Origin: Prosthecobacter sp.
Lineage (GTDB): Bacteria; Verrucomicrobiota; Verrucomicrobiia; Verrucomicrobiales; Verrucomicrobiaceae
Direction of reading: 5' to 3'
Length of the DNA: 33,065 nucleotides
Assembly (NCBI GenBank): GCA_030827515.1
Contig: JAUREI010000025.1
Span: 1-33,065, forward strand
Every line of letters starts with the position of its first letter. Position 1 is the first letter of the stretch. A program made the translations under genes and the position numbers. This document shows positions 24,352 to 33,065 of the stretch, one piece after another. Under the pieces are notes generated by a model that worked only from the letters and a program-made list of their open reading frames with translations, made no database searches and was not told the DNA's origin.

Positions 24352-25530
24352 TTAGACGGGGCCACCGGTCAGGGGCAGGTTTTGACCGTTGAGATAAGCC
24401 GCGCCATCGCCGGCCAAAAAGGCGATCAGCCCGGCTGAGTCCTCCGGCAGGGCCAGCCGGCGCAGGGGAACCCGTCGGGCTTCGACTTCCTTCAAACGTT
24501 GCGGCACATCGGCGGTGAGATCGGTCACGGTCATGCCGGGCGAAACCAGATTGACGGTGATCTGCTTGGGGCCCAGTTCAGCGGCCAGGCAGCGTGCCAG
24601 CCCCCAGAGCGCCTGTTTGGCGGTGACGTAGGCGCAGAGCTTGGGCGGTGGTTGGCCAAAGAGATAGGACGTGCCAAGGAAGATCATCCGGCCGAAGCCG
24701 CGCTCCGCCATGCCTGCCGCCGCCGCCTGGGCCATTTCCTGGGTGGCTTCGACCTGCATGCGCAGGCAGTCGCGCAACTCGGCCTGGGTGGTTTCCAGCA
24801 CGTCCTTGCCGGGCAGTGGCTGGGTGGCGGCATGCACCAGAATATCCAAACGGCCGAAGCGGTCTTCGACCTGCCTGACCAGCGCGGCGCCTGCACCGGT
24901 CGCCATCAAGTCCACGGCGATGCCGGCGGCCTGGATTCCATGCTCCGCCAGTTCCAGGCACAGGCGCTCGGCTTTTTCACGGTCAGACTTGTAGGCGACC
25001 GCGACATGGCAGCCGGCGGCAGCCAGCGCGCGGGCGGCCGCTGCGCCGATGCCGCGGGAAGCGCCGGTGACGAGGGCGACGCGCACGGCCTTTTGCTCCG
25101 ATGCCGCCGGTTGGGCGGCGATGCGGGTGGCGAGTTTCACCTTGGCCGTGCCCAGCATGAGTGTCTCGCCGCGGCCATTGCAGGCCTTCAGGTTCAGGGT
25201 CATCACCTCGGCCCCTGAGGAGTAGCTGGCGATCTCCGCCTCCACGCGGATGGTTTCGCCGACGAAGGCGGGCCGCAGCCATTCCATGCTCTGATTCATC
25301 CACACGGCCCCCGGGCCGGGCACTTTCATGCCAATCAATTTGGACACGACCGCCGACTGAATGGCGCCGTGGGCCACCGGATGCGCATAGCCGTAGGCAA
25401 GGGCCGCCTCTGAATCCAGATGCAGCGGATTGCGGTCGCCGGAGAAAGCGGCAAAGGCTTCGACCCATTCGGGGGTCAGCTGCACGTCCTCATGGAACTT
25501 CATTCCCGGCCGGAAGTTGGGTTCGTGCAT
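24352..25530 (-). CDS. MaoC-like dehydratase/hydratase fused to SDR ketoreductase
   Basis: The 392-residue protein joins two acyl-processing domains. Residues 1-140 are a MaoC hotdog domain with FSGDRNPLHLD (29-39), carrying the Asp32/His37 pair used by (R)-specific enoyl hydratases, and YGYAHPVAHG (47-56). Residues 148-392 are a FabG-like short-chain dehydrogenase: TGASRGIG (155-162), Ser288, Tyr301 and Lys305 (YVTAK), with NLVSPGMTVTDLT. Together they can reduce a 3-ketoacyl group and add or remove water at C2-C3, the two middle steps of a fatty-acid cycle. It lies 29 nt after an ACP and upstream of the beta-helix acyltransferase. I see no frameshift; the fusion looks genuine, joined by a short Ala/Gln-rich linker around 138-147. 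Confidence 0.93.
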   Translation of the reverse strand: MHEPNFRPGMKFHEDVQLTPEWVEAFAAFSGDRNPLHLDSEAALAYGYAHPVAHGAIQSAVVSKLIGMKVPGPGAVWMNQSMEWLRPAFVGETIRVEAEIASYSSGAEVMTLNLKACNGRGETLMLGTAKVKLATRIAAQPAASEQKAVRVALVTGASRGIGAAAARALAAAGCHVAVAYKSDREKAERLCLELAEHGIQAAGIAVDLMATGAGAALVRQVEDRFGRLDILVHAATQPLPGKDVLETTQAELRDCLRMQVEATQEMAQAAAAGMAERGFGRMIFLGTSYLFGQPPPKLCAYVTAKQALWGLARCLAAELGPKQITVNLVSPGMTVTDLTADVPQRLKEVEARRVPLRRLALPEDSAGLIAFLAGDGAAYLNGQNLPLTGGPV

Positions 25531-25559
25531 GGTCGGCAGGAAATCGAGGTGAAAGCGGC

Positions 25560-25808
25560 TCAGGCCTGGCCCAACTTTTCGTCGAGCATGAGGCGGATGA
25601 GCCGCAGTGAGGTCAGTTCCATGGTTTCCTCCGGCGAGAAGGCGACGCCAAAGGCCTCCTCCAGGGAAACGACCAGGTTCAAGTGGGTGACGGAATCCCA
25701 GGACGGCAGGGAATCCGGGCTGGAGTCGTCGCTGAGATCCATTTCGGCAACGCCCAACACGGCAGAAAGGGTTTGCCGCAGTTTGTCAGTGCGTTCTTGG
25801 GAATTCAT
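25560..25808 (-). CDS. Acyl carrier protein coupled to FkbH enzyme (third ACP)
   Basis: This 82-residue ACP has the attachment motif LPSWDSVTHLNLVVSLEEAFG, Ser39 being the phosphopantetheine site. Like the ACP at 20151 it uses WDS. The ATG at 25808 overlaps the FkbH-like stop as ATGA (25805-25808), so the two are translationally coupled; in characterised pathways the cognate ACP of an FkbH protein often sits next to it and receives the glyceryl unit. The MaoC-SDR fusion follows after 29 nt, suggesting that the loaded group is processed on this carrier. The C-terminus (LIRLMLDEKLGQA) completes the usual four-helix ACP. Confidence 0.95.
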   Translation of the reverse strand: MNSQERTDKLRQTLSAVLGVAEMDLSDDSSPDSLPSWDSVTHLNLVVSLEEAFGVAFSPEETMELTSLRLIRLMLDEKLGQA

Positions 25809-27592
25809 GGAACAAAAATCGTGCCGGTGAGGGCAAAGGTCTCGGGCAGGGGGCGCAATTCGTCAAGGCGCAGATGCCAGTGACCCTCGGTCGCGCCCAG
25901 CTGGTAGCCGTGGCGCGCGTAAAAGTCGGCGGCTGGCTGGTTCTTCGAGGTCGGAAGATACTGGCCAATCAATTCGCGGCCGCCAAGCTCGTGCACCCGT
26001 CGTTCAAGCACAGCCAAGAGGGCGGTTTCAACGCTTCGGCCAATGACGCGGCAGCTCATCAGAAAGGTGTCGATTGTCCAGACACCCTGGTTTGCCTCGA
26101 CGGCGACCGCGGCGGCGACCAGGCCGTTGTCGCCAAAGCGGTCGCGCACCCGGGCCCAAACGCCGATGGCACCAGCCTCGAGCAGTTCAGTCAGATGGGC
26201 GCGATCATGCCGTCGTGTTGTCAAGTTGAACTGGTTGGTTTTGGCTAGCAGTTGGACGATGCGCGGCAGGTTGGCGTCATCAAAGGGGCCGACCTCGACT
26301 TCCATCTGCAGGGAGCGCAGGAAGCCGTCGAGCGAGGCGGCTTCCGCGAGCAGTTCGCTGCGTGCGGATTCCTGCCGGTACAGTTCGGCGCGGCGGCGGT
26401 CTTCGTCGGTGAAGCGGAGGGCGTCGAAGGCGAGCGAATCCTCCAGGGCCTGGCCGTACAGCATGGCGCTTTTCGGCGCTTCAATCACGGTCACTTCGGG
26501 CAGTTGCGAGCGCACCCATTCCCGTTCGACGGGATTGTCATCGAAAAACACGAGAGAGTCGAGCCCGATGTTCAGCTGTTGGGCAATGCGTCTCAGGCTG
26601 GTTGCCTTGTCCTCCCAGTGGATCTCGAAGGCGGCGAAGTGTTCGCGTTTCAGCAGGCAGGCGGGATGTTCGGCCAGGGCCTGCTCGACATCTGCGGCGT
26701 TGTTCTTGCTGGCCGCGGCGAGCAGGATGCCACGATCGCGCAGGGCCAGGACCCGGCGCTGGAAATCGAGGAAAGCGTTGCCCGGGTAATCGACGCCAAG
26801 TTGCAATCCGTCGATGCCGCATTCGCCGAGCACCCCGCCCCAGAGGGTGTTGTCGAAATCAAGAACGAGGCATTTTTTCGGCGGTGTCGTCCAAGCCCGC
26901 AGGCATCTGCCGGCAAGCTTGGCCAGGGCGGCCAGGGCGGCCCCGCTCAGGGGGGCCTTGGCCAGCAGGGCCATGCGTGCATCGCGCCAGCCGGCCCAAC
27001 CGACCGAGCAGGCACTGCCCCAGACATCAAACACGGTGGCGTCCGGCGTTGCCCGGCAAAGTCCGGCAATCCGCTCGTTGACGGCCTGAACGATGGATGT
27101 CAGCGCTCGGTCGAGCATCGGGTCCGCGATTCCCGCGGCCAGCCAGGCTGGAGGTGCCAGGTTGCCGAGCAGGATTTTCATGGGACTGCGGGCACGGATC
27201 GCGGCGAGCACGCTGCGCAGCCGTTCCATCAGGTCTTCCTGCAGGCGCTCGCAGGTCACCTCGTCGCAGGCGAGATGGCGCCAGGCCAGATCCGGCGACA
27301 GGGCTTCGAGTTCCGGCAGGATGAGGACGGCGTCCGCGCCGGTCTGATAAAGTTCGGCTCCGGCATCGAGGGCCTGCTGCTCAATCTGTCCGTAGGGACC
27401 GTTCCAAAGGTTCAGGGCGATGCCGTGGCGCGCGGCCTCCACGATCAGGCTGGGATTGAGGAACTCGGTCGTGCTGCTGCCGAGCAGGGCGAGTTTCAGG
27501 GGGCGCCATTCCGCTGCTGGAGCTGCCTGGATGGCCGCCGCGAGACGTGTGTAATCCGCCCGGCTGAGCGGGGTGTCTGGGATGGCGATCAT
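25805..27592 (-). CDS. FkbH-like HAD-IIIC enzyme (SGNH-like + HAD + GNAT-like)
   Basis: This 595-residue protein has the three-part FkbH architecture. Residues 30-230 form an SGNH-like region (LGSSTTEFL, 38-45). The HAD-IIIC domain starts at CLVLDFDNTLWGGVLGE (241-257; Asp245 and Asp247), followed by AAASKNN (292-298) and FFDDNPVEREWVR (349-361). The C-terminal GNAT-like region has KTNQFNLTTRR (451-461) and IDTFLMSCRVIGR (507-519). Characterised members dephosphorylate 1,3-bisphosphoglycerate and load glycerate onto an ACP for methoxymalonyl or tetronate units; other members occur in capsule and O-antigen loci. The ATG at 27592 overlaps the upstream methyltransferase-like stop (ATGA, 27589-27592), and the ACP follows with the same overlap. 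The start is also fixed by family length. Confidence 0.95.
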   Translation of the reverse strand: MIAIPDTPLSRADYTRLAAAIQAAPAAEWRPLKLALLGSSTTEFLNPSLIVEAARHGIALNLWNGPYGQIEQQALDAGAELYQTGADAVLILPELEALSPDLAWRHLACDEVTCERLQEDLMERLRSVLAAIRARSPMKILLGNLAPPAWLAAGIADPMLDRALTSIVQAVNERIAGLCRATPDATVFDVWGSACSVGWAGWRDARMALLAKAPLSGAALAALAKLAGRCLRAWTTPPKKCLVLDFDNTLWGGVLGECGIDGLQLGVDYPGNAFLDFQRRVLALRDRGILLAAASKNNAADVEQALAEHPACLLKREHFAAFEIHWEDKATSLRRIAQQLNIGLDSLVFFDDNPVEREWVRSQLPEVTVIEAPKSAMLYGQALEDSLAFDALRFTDEDRRRAELYRQESARSELLAEAASLDGFLRSLQMEVEVGPFDDANLPRIVQLLAKTNQFNLTTRRHDRAHLTELLEAGAIGVWARVRDRFGDNGLVAAAVAVEANQGVWTIDTFLMSCRVIGRSVETALLAVLERRVHELGGRELIGQYLPTSKNQPAADFYARHGYQLGATEGHWHLRLDELRPLPETFALTGTIFVP

Positions 27593-28491
27593 GCGTTGGG
27601 ACCAGTGGCGGACGGGGCTTCCAACAGCCGCACCTCCTGCCAGGCGCCACGGGCCAGGCGTGCGTGGTGGCGGCGTTGACGCCAGCGCTTCACAGGAAGG
27701 GTCAGGCTTTCGGGCAGGGCGGCCTGGAGCAGCCGCTTCAGGAACGAGCGGCTCCCCGCAGGAGTCGCACCAGCGGCGGCCTCGCTCCACATGGCGGTGT
27801 AGTTGCTCTGGCCGGGCCAGGCGGGACTGCCGGTGCGTTCGGCGAGTTTCGTCGCGTGGACCAGCATGACGAGCGGCCGGCGGCCGGGCACCAAGGGGCG
27901 GCAGCCGCTGACGGCGGGATCCTTCAGGCGAAACAGCCGCGACTTGGCCGGTGGCGGCCCGAATTCGGCGAGCCAGAGGCCGTCGAGCCGGAAGCCGTTC
28001 TCGGGCGTCAGGAAGCGGAAGAAGAGTTCGGGCTGGGGCTGGTAAAAGCCGTGACCGAGCCAGCCGTCGGCGGGGCTGACGCTGAGCAGGCAGCCGCCGG
28101 GGCGGACCAGATCCATGGCGTTGAGCAGGGCCTGCGGCAGATTGAAGACATGCTCGAGGGTGCCGCCGTCGAAGACCACATCAAACTGCTCCGGTGGCCG
28201 GCCCTCCGGCCAGGGGCGGTTCATGTCGTGGATGAGGCGCGCGCCCTCGTAGTCGGAAAAGTCGAGCGATTCAACGCGGCCGGCGCCGAGTTGTTCGAAC
28301 AGCGGTTCGGCCCAAGTCTTGGCGTTCCAGTCGATGCCGCGCAGGTCGGTGCCGTAGCAGGCGAACAAATGCTCGAGCATGTCGGGGCTCAGGGCCAGCG
28401 ACTGCCGCCCAAGCATGAGGAAGTCGGTCAGGCTCGCACCCGCCCGGCGGGCGTGCATGACGAGGGCGGTTTCCCAGAGTCCGACAGCCAT
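27589..28491 (-). CDS. Methyltransferase-like protein with degenerate SAM motif I
   Basis: The 300-residue protein has the later landmarks of a class I methyltransferase, FDVVFDGGTLEHVFNLPQALLNAMDLVRPGGCLL (about 102-136), and an acidic strand-2 position in VESLDFSDYEGA. The glycine-rich motif I (E/DxGxGxG) expected before it is not recognisable: the corresponding stretch reads GAGRVESLDFSD. It may have lost SAM binding, or may be a family that binds differently. The C-terminal 80 residues are basic (KRLLQAAL, KRWRQRRHHARLARG). It starts 2 nt after the Trm112-type methyltransferase stop and overlaps the FkbH start by 4 bp. Substrate unknown; its place between two methyl-transfer/ACP genes suggests a role in building the same modification. 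Confidence 0.75.
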   Translation of the reverse strand: MAVGLWETALVMHARRAGASLTDFLMLGRQSLALSPDMLEHLFACYGTDLRGIDWNAKTWAEPLFEQLGAGRVESLDFSDYEGARLIHDMNRPWPEGRPPEQFDVVFDGGTLEHVFNLPQALLNAMDLVRPGGCLLSVSPADGWLGHGFYQPQPELFFRFLTPENGFRLDGLWLAEFGPPPAKSRLFRLKDPAVSGCRPLVPGRRPLVMLVHATKLAERTGSPAWPGQSNYTAMWSEAAAGATPAGSRSFLKRLLQAALPESLTLPVKRWRQRRHHARLARGAWQEVRLLEAPSATGPNA

Positions 28492-29660: not shown

Positions 29661-31517
29661 TCAATCCATAAAGCGCCGGAACCAGAGTTCCAGCAAGATG
29701 AAGTTCCAGATCATGCGCGCGCCCTCGCCGCATTGTTCGTAGCGGGCGAGCCGGCCGGCGACCTCATCCGGATCCAGCAGGCCGCGGCGACGGAGGTTGG
29801 CGGGAGTCAGCAGGCCGCGCGCGTAGGCGGCAAAGTTGCCCTGGAACCAGCCTGCCAGTGGCACCAGGAAGCCGTGCTGCCGGCGTTGGGCGATCTCCGG
29901 CGGCAGCAGGCGGGTGGCCAGGCCGCGCAGCACGGCCTTGGTGCGGCCGCCGGCCAGCAGCAGTTCCGGCGCGAAGCCAGCGCAAACTTCGGTGAGACGG
30001 TGATCAAGGTACGGGACACGCGCTTCCAGGCCATGGGCCATGGTCATGCGATCCACTTTCATGAGCAGGTCCTCGCGCATGAAGACGGCGCGACTGAAGT
30101 GCAGCAGGCGCTGCACCGGGTCATGGCTGTCGCAGGTGTCGAGTTCCGCCTGCAGGCGGGACAGCACGGAGGGACGATGGCGGGACAGGTTTGGGACGAG
30201 ACGTGTCAGTGGCGAGTCGGGCGTGCCGGCATCGAACTGGTCGTTGGCGAGCAGGCGTCCGAGTTCGCCGTCGGCCTGCCAGAGCGGCGAATAATGTTCG
30301 AAGCGCGCCCGCGCCGCGGGCAGCCGGCGCAGCAGCGGCCAGAGCAGCCGCGCCAGGCCCAGGGTCGCCGGCCGGCGCTGGAAGAGGGCATAGCGCAGGA
30401 ACTTGGCGTAGCCGGCATTCGTCTCGTCCGAGCCCTCGCCGGTGAGCACGACGCGCACTTCTCGGGCGGCTTCGCGCGAGAGCAGCCAGGTCGGCAGGCA
30501 GGCGGGATCGCCCAGGGGTTCGTCGAGGTGCCAGACGAGTTCCTCTAAAACCTCCGGTGGCGGAGCCCGAATGGCAATGCGCCGGTGTTCCGCGCCGATG
30601 TGCGCGGCCACTCGCGCGGCATGAGCACTTTCATCGCCCGCGCCCTCGAAGCCGGCGGTGAAGCAGACCACCGGCCGGTCGACGCGCTGCTGCACCAGCG
30701 CCGCGAGCACGCTGGAATCGAGGCCGCCGCTGAGGAAGAGGCCGAGTGGCACATCGGCGAGCAGATGCGAGTCAACGGCATCGCCGAGCGACCGTTCATA
30801 GCTGGCCGCGGCCTCAGTCGCGTTGCGGACCAGGGTGGCGGGATGGCGCAGGCGCCAGTACTCGCTCAGCCGGATGCCGCCGGCATCCGCCTCCAGCAAG
30901 GTCGCCGCCGGCAGTTTATGAATGCCGGCAAAGAGGGTGTCCGGCTGCAGGGAGTGACGCAGCAGCAGGAATTGGAAGAGACCTGCCTCGTCGGGGGTGG
31001 CGCTAACCTCCGGATGGGCCAGAAGGGCCTTGATTTCGGAGCCATAGACCAGGCAACCGTTTTTCTCCGTCCAATAGATGGGCTTGATGCCGAGGCGGTC
31101 GCGGGCGAGGACCAGCTTGCGTCGGCGGACATCGTACAGGGCGATGCCAAACATGCCGCGCAGGTGATCGACGAAGCCGGTGCCATGCTCCTCGTAGAGG
31201 TGGGCGATGACCTCGGTGTCGGAGCGGGTGCGGAAGCGGTGGCCGCGCGCCTCAAGCTCTCGACGCAGCTCGGGATGGTTGTAGATCTCGCCGTTGAGGG
31301 TGACCCAGACGGATTCGTCCTCGTTGGCGATGGGTTGGTGGCCGCCCTCAAGATCGATGATGCTCAGCCGGCGAAAGCCGAGGCCGCAGGGGCCATTGAC
31401 GAAGCGGCCGTCATCGTTCGGGCCGCGGTGGGCGATGGCCTGTTCCATCGCGCGCACCCGCGCCGCATCGGCCCGCCGTTCGGGATCGAAAAAAAATTCG
31501 CCGCAGATGCCGCACAT
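29661..31517 (-). CDS. asnB: Asparagine synthase-type glutamine amidotransferase
   Basis: This is a 618-residue class II amidotransferase. Starting at MCGICGEFF, Cys2 (mature Cys1) is the glutaminase nucleophile, and RGPNDDG (31-37), LSIIDLEGGHQP (51-62) and NGEIYN (75-80) line the glutamine site. The synthetase half has the PP-loop SGGLDSS (263-269), VLTGEGSDE and AHGLEARVPYLDHRL. AsnB-like proteins in polysaccharide loci are often used to amidate uronic acids or other carboxylates rather than to make asparagine; a glycerate- or sugar-derived carboxylate here would fit, as inference. The ATG at 31517 is required to place Cys at position 2. It starts 7 nt after the TylF-type stop; the bases before it read GAGACCTCC, with no proper Shine-Dalgarno site. 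Confidence 0.95.
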   Translation of the reverse strand: MCGICGEFFFDPERRADAARVRAMEQAIAHRGPNDDGRFVNGPCGLGFRRLSIIDLEGGHQPIANEDESVWVTLNGEIYNHPELRRELEARGHRFRTRSDTEVIAHLYEEHGTGFVDHLRGMFGIALYDVRRRKLVLARDRLGIKPIYWTEKNGCLVYGSEIKALLAHPEVSATPDEAGLFQFLLLRHSLQPDTLFAGIHKLPAATLLEADAGGIRLSEYWRLRHPATLVRNATEAAASYERSLGDAVDSHLLADVPLGLFLSGGLDSSVLAALVQQRVDRPVVCFTAGFEGAGDESAHAARVAAHIGAEHRRIAIRAPPPEVLEELVWHLDEPLGDPACLPTWLLSREAAREVRVVLTGEGSDETNAGYAKFLRYALFQRRPATLGLARLLWPLLRRLPAARARFEHYSPLWQADGELGRLLANDQFDAGTPDSPLTRLVPNLSRHRPSVLSRLQAELDTCDSHDPVQRLLHFSRAVFMREDLLMKVDRMTMAHGLEARVPYLDHRLTEVCAGFAPELLLAGGRTKAVLRGLATRLLPPEIAQRRQHGFLVPLAGWFQGNFAAYARGLLTPANLRRRGLLDPDEVAGRLARYEQCGEGARMIWNFILLELWFRRFMD

Positions 31518-31524
31518 GGAGGTC

Positions 31525-32160
31525 TCAAGGCTTGATGGCGATGCGTGCCGTGGCGTCAATGCGCACTAGAAGCGGGCGCGGAGCGTGGTGCTCGAAGTAT
31601 TCGTCCACAGCCCGCCGCGATCCCTGCCAGTATCCATAGTCATCCACAATAAGCACTCCTCCAGAGATCAGTCTCGGGTAGAGGTGAACAAGTTCGTGTT
31701 TCGTTGATTCGTACCAGTCCGTATCGAGACGCAAGAGAGCGATGCGTTCAGGCATTTGCTCTGGCAGCGTGTCCTCCACCTTGCCCTTAATGAAGTGGAT
31801 TTGTTGAGTGGGGTACTGAATTGAGGCGAGGTTGTTGCGGACTTCTTCTAGCGGGGAGTAACACCAGACCGAACGCGGATTATGAATGTCCTGCTGTTGC
31901 AATTGTTGTTCTGCAACCTCGCCATCATAGCTCACATCCGCGTCCGTGGGTTTGCTCATTCCTTCGTAGGTGTCGTAGAGCCAAAAGTCACGTCGAGTGT
32001 CTCCACAGGAGAGTAGTGCCATGGCGGCGGCCATGGCAGAGCCTCCCTTCCAGACGCCGCACTCGACGAAATCACCTTTGATGCCACACGACACAAGGTG
32101 GCGAGTTGCCTCAACGAGGACGGCGACACGTTCAGGACTGGTCATCGTGAAAGGTCGCAC
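31525..32160 (-). CDS. TylF/MycF-type O-methyltransferase; true N-terminus probably longer
   Basis: From the first canonical start (GTG at 32160) the protein has 211 residues and shows TylF-family motifs: RPFTMTSPERV (2-12), GDFVECGVWKGGSAM (29-43), YDTYEGMSKPTDAD (65-78), LRLDTDWYESTKHEL and LIVDDYGYWQGSRRAVDEYF. Characterised members are metal-dependent sugar O-methyltransferases in macrolide pathways. The same frame stays open upstream to a TGA near 32330, and the extra residues (for example YDLSELEISILSK just before VRPFTMTS) look like the family's N-terminus, yet contain no ATG, GTG or TTG. A CTG at 32262 would overlap the preceding gene's stop as CTGA and give 245 residues, near family length. 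Coordinates here use the conservative GTG. Confidence 0.85.
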   Translation of the reverse strand: MRPFTMTSPERVAVLVEATRHLVSCGIKGDFVECGVWKGGSAMAAAMALLSCGDTRRDFWLYDTYEGMSKPTDADVSYDGEVAEQQLQQQDIHNPRSVWCYSPLEEVRNNLASIQYPTQQIHFIKGKVEDTLPEQMPERIALLRLDTDWYESTKHELVHLYPRLISGGVLIVDDYGYWQGSRRAVDEYFEHHAPRPLLVRIDATARIAIKP

Positions 32161-32258
32161 CTTGGATAAAATGGAGATTTCGAGCTCGGATAGATCGTAG
32201 GGTAGCGCTGGCAGATCGCTGCCTCGACGGTTCCGTAGTTCGAGGGCCAGAGGTGCGA

Positions 32259-33065
32259 TCAGGCGATTGATGGTCTTGCAGAAGAAGGAAGTCGTGGAAG
32301 AGGCGGGTGGCTCAGAGTCTCGTACAGTTCAGACCATGCGTCCAGAACGCGGCAGAGGTTGTTGTGTGATTCCATCCAGAAGCGGGCACGGCGGCCTATG
32401 TTCAGGCGATGGCTGGATGACGCATCATGCAGGATTTCGGCCAAGCAGGTGCTCCAGGAGCCTGGTTGGTGGTTGAGCGGCAGATAGTGTGCGCCGGCGG
32501 TGCCGAGTTCCTCGCCATCGGGCGGTCGGCCGTCGAAGTCTGCGATCAGGCAGGGCAGACCGCTGGCCATGGCTTCCAGCACGGCATTGGGCAGGCCCTC
32601 GCGACGCGAGGGAAAGGCGAACAGGTCGGCGAGGCGGTACAGCGGGGCGGGGTCGTCCACCTCGCCGAGGAAGCGCACGCTTGCCGGATGAGTCAACTGC
32701 GCGCGCAGCCCGTCGATCCGCTGCACATAGTCTTCGAGCTCCTGTTTGAAGCCGGGGCGTTCGTGGGAGATGCGCCCGCCCTGGCTGCCGGCAATGGCGA
32801 GCACGGCGTCGGGATGGCGCGCGCTGACGGCGTTCCAGGCTTCCAGCAGGATGTCGATGCCCTTGCGCTGCATGAGGCCGCCGACGAAGAGGACAATCTT
32901 TTCCCGGGCGCCGAAGCCGTGACGGGCGCGCAGTTCAAGCCGTTCCGCCGGGTCTGTGGCGGGACGAAAGCGTTCGAGATCAACGCCATTGGGGATGACT
33001 TCGATTTGCCCAGGTCGCAGCGGCCAGCGCGCCTGATAATGCCGGGAGAGCTGGTGGCTCAAGAA
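32259..33065 (-). CDS. GT4-family glycosyltransferase, N-terminus cut off by window edge
   Basis: The last 268 residues of a GT-B glycosyltransferase are present; the frame is open to the right edge and begins mid-protein. It includes the linker PNGVDLERFRP, the donor-domain opening IVLFVGGLMQRKGIDILLEAW, VLAIAGSQGG, VRFLGEVDDPAPLYRLADLF and the retaining GT4 signature SRREGLPNAVLEAMASGLP with the E-x7-E pair. The missing N-terminal acceptor domain should be about 120-150 residues. It most likely transfers one sugar of the repeat from a nucleotide donor at the inner membrane. It is the most upstream visible gene of the nine-gene minus-strand operon, and its TGA (32259-32261) lies inside the probable start region of the TylF-type gene. 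Confidence 0.93.
   Translation of the reverse strand, partial: FLSHQLSRHYQARWPLRPGQIEVIPNGVDLERFRPATDPAERLELRARHGFGAREKIVLFVGGLMQRKGIDILLEAWNAVSARHPDAVLAIAGSQGGRISHERPGFKQELEDYVQRIDGLRAQLTHPASVRFLGEVDDPAPLYRLADLFAFPSRREGLPNAVLEAMASGLPCLIADFDGRPPDGEELGTAGAHYLPLNHQPGSWSTCLAEILHDASSSHRLNIGRRARFWMESHNNLCRVLDAWSELYETLSHPPLPRLPSSARPSIA

Follow-up and report, generated by a model that had tools for sequence, protein, structure and literature searches.

The gene for a TylF-type methyltransferase that lies between a glycosyltransferase gene and asnB in the window (the whole stretch of 33,065 nucleotides of Prosthecobacter DNA analysed here) has no ATG, GTG or TTG codon ahead of the conserved beginning of its protein. 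At the level of the present assembly, this start-codon anomaly is genuine, and the gene probably lacks a normal start because an insertion removed the start signal. The fuller reading, which we prefer but hold tentatively, is that a foreign gene was inserted, that its own start was lost at the junction, and that a full-length enzyme may still be made by weak non-canonical re-initiation. The locus comprises the following features.

32259 to 33065, minus strand: GT4-type glycosyltransferase gene (GT; Pfam PF00534), cut by the contig end
31525 to 32328, minus strand: TylF-type methyltransferase frame from stop to stop, with TGA 32331 upstream and its terminal TGA at 31525-31527
29661 to 31517, minus strand: asnB (asparagine synthase; Pfam PF00733), used for synteny
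31519 to 32354, minus strand: interval without a DNA counterpart in the same-genus genome G009, containing TylF and the last GT codons

The TylF frame opens at 32328, just behind TGA 32331, and holds no ATG, GTG or TTG upstream of GTG 32160, as the first-pass annotation had reported. In fact, these codons are absent from all three minus-strand frames between ATG 32337 and GTG 32160, and ATG 32337 itself is in the TylF frame but is separated from it by GTC and then TGA 32331. A frame break concealing the start was also considered and rejected, because the remaining two upstream frames carry no canonical start from 32337 to 32160. The overlap to which the annotation had drawn attention exists as well: CTG 32262-32260 overlaps the GT stop (TGA 32261-32259) as CTGA, and a start at this CTG gives 245 codons to the stop at 31525. 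No canonical start in the window's TylF yields the conserved N-terminal region; the gene thus has conserved coding sequence without a preceding canonical start, the pattern looked for in near-cognate initiation. A canonical start before the conserved N-terminus is usual among TylF homologues and not strictly family-defining, and its absence weakens the case for an ordinary, expressed gene while leaving the homology untouched.

By profile, predicted fold and core residues, the frame is a member of the TylF methyltransferase family, and its activity is predicted from these. It matches the Pfam profile PF05711 with 151.4 bits (cut-off 23), and its structure model (pLDDT 91.6 overall) has SpnH (4ce0), MycF (4x7u) and NovP (2wk1) as top fold matches. 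The 267 codons contain no stop and no frame break. In an alignment of 84 homologues, 29 columns are identical in 84/84 and 64 columns agree in at least 76 of 84, and the window deviates at none of them. The conserved core is present, including the Asp of RLDTD and DDYG, residues which we take to have a metal role. The protein therefore has the profile match, fold and core residues of the TylF/macrocin O-methyltransferase family (PF05711; SpnH, MycF, NovP), and differs from that family in that the conserved Asp and helix described below are not preceded by a canonical start. An NCBIfam search with TylF gave no match, a PHROGs search gave weak methyltransferase and glycosyltransferase matches only, and viral relatives made up 60 loci among the matches listed. 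A close orthologue was not found, the best having 59% identity over the matched part among the matches listed, so the loss of the start is not traceable, and neither is selection on a replacement.

To describe the N-termini of the family, we used 93 homologues scoring at least 215 bits among 111 loci matched, with the window's own two copies removed; later relatives (L264-L267) were inspected only and stand outside the counts. The alignment of 84 leaves out six homologues without a suitable ATG, two with odd ends (L041 and L061) and L075, which is almost identical to L073. An in-frame canonical codon, which is not a proven start, precedes the GTG site by 17 residues or more in 92 of the 93 homologues, and an ATG does so in 88. 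The Pirellulaceae homologue L024 (at about 4001) has no canonical codon that far upstream, its first being a GTG 6 residues before the core. With the longest form that begins at an ATG no more than 75 residues away, the start lies a median of 42 residues before the GTG site, with 62 of 93 at 36-45. By the same measure CTG 32262 gives 34 residues and ATC 32271 gives 37, and N-termini of 34 residues or fewer occur in 10 of 93, five of these without an ATG in range. The 245 residues that the first-pass annotation called near the TylF norm are inside the family range of lengths, and the usual N-terminus is longer (a median of 42 residues versus 34). The residue aligned with CTG 32262 is present in 81 of 84 homologues and is mostly hydrophobic. 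The homologues' Met residues align by eye, in a poorly conserved region, near 32283-32286, where the window reads TTC TTC. In homologue L070, only three open codons precede the ATG of the frame, and the N-terminus ends level with CTG 32214 by residue count, which implies that short TylF N-terminal forms exist.

The sequence between CTG 32262 and GTG 32160 falls into two parts.

32161 to 32213, minus strand: conserved part of the extension (LP-x-D, then a helix), lost with a start at GTG 32160
32214 to 32262, minus strand: proximal part of the extension from CTG 32262, open, without detectable family conservation

Scored against a profile of the 93 homologues, the protein reaches 370.6-371.9 bits from GTG 32160, 383.7 from CTG 32214, 384.7 from CTG 32262, 384.9 from ATC 32271 and 386.8 for the entire frame. 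The extension from CTG 32262 gains 14 bits, and almost the whole gain lies between 32214 and 32160 (383.7 versus 371.9 bits). When the 34-residue extension was shuffled 1000 times, no version reached the real score (best shuffle, 379.6 bits), and antisense controls gave 373.9-376.1 bits. Wrong-frame controls gave 374.9 and 380.8 bits, the higher one being 3.9 below the real score and above every shuffle, so that the profile discriminates frames only modestly. When the extension was scored in pieces, its residues 18-32 were equalled by 0 of 300 shuffles by mean score and by 10 of 300 by top-ten score; for the first 16 residues from CTG 32262, 222 of 300 shuffles were equally good by mean score. 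A piece starting seven residues further upstream was borderline (25/300), a value that can be read only to a limited extent because a control piece further upstream was likewise borderline (32/300 by mean, 6/300 by top ten). The first-pass annotation had taken all 34 codons for family sequence and had proposed an alignment with TylF-family proteins; in this alignment the extension is conserved next to GTG 32160, where the Asp at 32196 is common to 77 of 84 homologues, and not at the CTG. The claim is borne out from about 32214 to GTG 32160 and finds no support in the 16 residues that begin at the CTG. The structure model is consistent with this division: counted from ATC 32271, a predicted helix spans residues 29-41 and is mostly encoded by the extension, the block pLDDT reaches 89 (residues 21-30) and 96 (residues 31-40), and residues 1-20 are modeled weakly (block values of 62 and 50). 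Judged by profile and model, the distal half of the extension, adjoining GTG 32160, is genuine TylF-family protein; since the sequence just upstream of GTG 32160 is part of the family protein, initiation there or at ATG 32145 would give a truncated product. A host codon model places the beginning of the TylF coding signal 91 codons past CTG 32262, a late onset that is expected from foreign codon usage and lends the extension no support.

The following codons were considered as possible starts.

32259 to 32262, minus strand: CTG in CTGA, the proposed start, overlapping the GT stop; 245 residues
32269 to 32271, minus strand: ATC, near-cognate alternative, second-ranked in both context models and in an accessible stretch; 248 residues
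32212 to 32214, minus strand: CTG, near-cognate alternative, retaining Asp 32196 and the helix; 229 residues
32158 to 32160, minus strand: GTG, first canonical codon; 211 residues, truncated
32143 to 32145, minus strand: ATG, first ATG; 206 residues, truncated further

Two start-context models, cross-validated on 332 genes, placed the true start best among near-cognates in 57% (wider model) and 50% (narrower model) of cases, and for this reason they rank the candidates only weakly. The wider model scored ATG 32145 at 6.4, ATC 32271 at 6.2 and CTG 32214 at 4.6, followed by ATT 32172 (3.2), CTG 32262 (2.7) and GTG 32160 (1.0); in the narrower model, the order was ATT 32172 (3.0), ATC 32271 (2.2), ATG 32145 (1.1), CTG 32262 (0.8) and CTG 32214 (-0.3). 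Among the 332 sampled starts, C stands at -1 in 79% and A follows the ATG in 42%. Accessibility favoured 32271 and 32262 over 32145, around which the stretch is so folded that only 4.5% of sampled starts are equally structured. ATC 32271 may be a mere internal Ile codon, since the aligned residue of the homologues is mostly I, L or V. A GAGG lies 7 nt upstream of CTG 32214 and carries little weight because 4-base Shine-Dalgarno motifs are no commoner at starts than at controls in this genome (7.0% of 345 starts versus 7.4% of 1035 controls); a 16S rRNA, sought for its anti-Shine-Dalgarno sequence, was not found in the assembly. GTG 32160 encodes a Val common to 63 of 84 homologues, and ATG 32145 encodes the Met of a TMTS motif common to 74 of 84. 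The G+C content by codon position is 0.68/0.41/0.59 in the 34 codons downstream of CTG 32262 and 0.64/0.42/0.62 in the TylF body, and the 22 codons upstream of the CTG are unlike the body (0.36/0.64/0.64). Taken over these measures, CTG 32262 is one candidate among several and not the favoured one.

The weight of the CTGA overlap depends on how often it arises by default. In a genome sample of 845 kb (81 pieces including the window, with 582 called ORFs, some possibly spurious), the base before 400 background TGA stops was C in 229, G in 82, T in 60 and A in 29, which makes CTGA the default in this sample. At 64 junctions where an NTG overlaps a TGA and shares its frame with a called ORF downstream, N was C in 27, A in 25, G in 8 and T in 4; these counts use called ORFs because an all-ORF count is swamped by the shadow ORFs of a GC-rich genome. 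A is therefore strongly enriched at the overlaps (25/64 versus 29/400) and C is not (27/64 versus 229/400), which means that the CTGA geometry does not exceed its base rate. In 26 of the 27 CTGA junctions a canonical codon follows within 1-30 codons; the exception is TylF, with 34 codons. At the window stops 28494, 22514 and 17840 the CTGA is likewise in register with a long frame downstream, whose ATG comes 1-4 codons on. The first-pass annotation had compared the CTGA with ATGA overlaps at four other junctions, a count that was not reproduced in a check of 35 hand-chosen main-ORF stops in the window: ATGA 27592, ATGA 19171 and GTGA 14417 enter frames of more than 400 codons, and ATGA 25808 enters one of only 82. 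Its further suggestion that CTG 32262 replaced an ATG in a coupled start is not supported, given that CTGA is the commonest TGA context and that the family signal does not reach the CTG. Overall, its observation is confirmed in part and its interpretation is supported in part. Seven of 500 other start-less ORFs were inspected by eye and gave no clear second case; several of the seven resembled shadow ORFs, and one (L147) a transposase piece.

In a search for asnB in 68 genomes of the family, only G009 (same genus) and the outgroup G056 (from a different genus of the family) gave, besides the window, an asnB of at least 60% identity. G009 is syntenic with the window (GT 63%, asnB 75%, next genes 77% and 71% identity), and its GT stop lies 18 nt from asnB with no TylF between them; in a blastn comparison with the window, similarity ends at 31518 and resumes at 32355. 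In G056 the GT (51%) adjoins asnB directly, again without TylF. Parsimony favours an insertion in the window's lineage over two losses. Codon usage in TylF is foreign (0.4th percentile for GC3 and 3rd percentile for codon score among 540 called ORFs) and that of GT and asnB is ordinary in the same set. The GT C-terminal tail is 12-13 residues longer than in the G009 and G056 orthologues, which fits a junction that would have taken the GT stop and the TylF start together. No convincing direct repeats marking the insertion were found.

The preferred reading would proceed in this way. A foreign TylF-type sugar O-methyltransferase gene would have entered between GT and asnB, and the junction would have deleted its own start codon and also the GT stop, GT then reading 12-13 residues further, to TGA 32259. 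Ribosomes halting at this TGA would most likely re-start at a near-cognate codon nearby, the candidates being ATC 32271, CTG 32262 and CTG 32214; a full-length enzyme would need such weak non-canonical initiation because the conserved Asp and helix precede the first canonical start. Against this stand the facts that conservation stops short of 32262 and 32271, that a wrong-frame extension reached 380.8 bits, that a recent insertion would stay open without being translated, that ATG 32145 has the top score in the wider context model (6.4), and that the host codon model sees TylF coding only 91 codons past the CTG. That a captured start-less gene was revived by termination-reinitiation specifically at a near-cognate codon by the GT stop (the CTGA, or the ATC 9 nt earlier) is possible though doubtful. 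If CTG 32262 itself were the start, coupled to GT termination through CTGA, the protein would have 245 residues; the real geometry, a length inside the family range, the G+C pattern downstream and the accessible stretch agree with it, but CTGA is the default context (229/400), 26 of 27 CTGA cases have a canonical codon at most 30 codons on, the first 16 residues lack the family signal, and the wider model ranks ATG 32145, ATC 32271, CTG 32214 and ATT 32172 above it, which makes this start improbable.

Initiation at GTG 32160 or ATG 32145 would produce an N-terminally shortened enzyme. These are the first canonical codons past the GT stop in any frame, and ATG 32145 is the best candidate of the wider context model; such a start would cost the protein Asp 32196 and most or all of the helix at 29-41, both codons are accounted for by the conserved Val and Met, only L024 of the 93 homologues has no canonical codon at least 17 residues upstream, the stretch around ATG 32145 is unusually structured (4.5%) and the context of GTG 32160 is poor, and we consider the shortened form rather unlikely. 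It is unlikely, too, that the inserted TylF is a recently captured start-less remnant that is not usefully translated. In favour of this reading, its foreign codon usage suggests a recent arrival, a canonical start is absent and two relatives do without the gene; the intact frame and 64 undeviating conserved columns speak against it, although a recent insertion would look alike. We give little credence to a consensus or assembly error masking an ordinary start codon. The draft is broken into 315 contigs, with 96.25% completeness and 3.7% contamination, and the contig end is 803 bases from CTG 32262, but TylF shows no further sign of error over its 267 open codons and conserved columns, and a single changed base would not suffice at the TTC where the homologues' Met aligns. 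Fusion of GT and TylF into one protein by a -1 frameshift is barely conceivable: both frames are open over 32262-32328, but a slippery heptamer (X XXY YYZ) was not found in the overlap, and the GT orthologues of G009 and G056 end before asnB where TylF is absent.

Known systems resemble the locus in part. The 4-nt overlap of a stop with the downstream frame is shared with the -4 nt ATGA/GTGA overlaps coupled by termination-reinitiation, which are the subject of PMC10666635; here, CTG would take the place of the usual codon, and CTGA is what chance gives by default in our sample. Bacterial genes with near-cognate starts (CUG, AUU), as presented in PMC5622118, likewise have a frame without AUG, GUG or UUG at its beginning, as does the frame-shifted gene that PMC6397469 reports to be translated from a non-natural start; the window's TylF differs from both in being known from sequence alone. 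PMC5622118 also gives AUG-to-CUG switches as rare (2/61,358), which calls for caution about a CTG start. Akkermansia is among the organisms scarce in Shine-Dalgarno sequences according to PMC10783764, and the phrase 'CTG start codon' is used in E. coli papers, for example PMC5960689. In titles and abstract openings, we found no description of a coupled CTG start in a captured gene. If the gene is expressed, it would offer a natural test of start-codon strictness in re-initiation where Shine-Dalgarno signals are not evident in the genome, and it would illustrate the re-wiring of captured genes into operons; should it be dead, or the product of an error, the case is ordinary. For annotation, gene callers limited to ATG, GTG and TTG would clip the conserved N-terminus here.

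The cluster around TylF looks like the surface-polysaccharide type, its other genes in the window carrying methyltransferase, FkbH-like, SDR, hexapeptide, glycosyltransferase and sulfotransferase domains. A run of eight T residues at 31489-31496, close to the asnB start, is a possible site of slippage or error. At 24352-27790, FkbH-like and MaoC-SDR genes are unmatched in the syntenic stretch of G009, where the outer neighbours of the missing pair adjoin, pointing to another gene gain or loss within the cluster.
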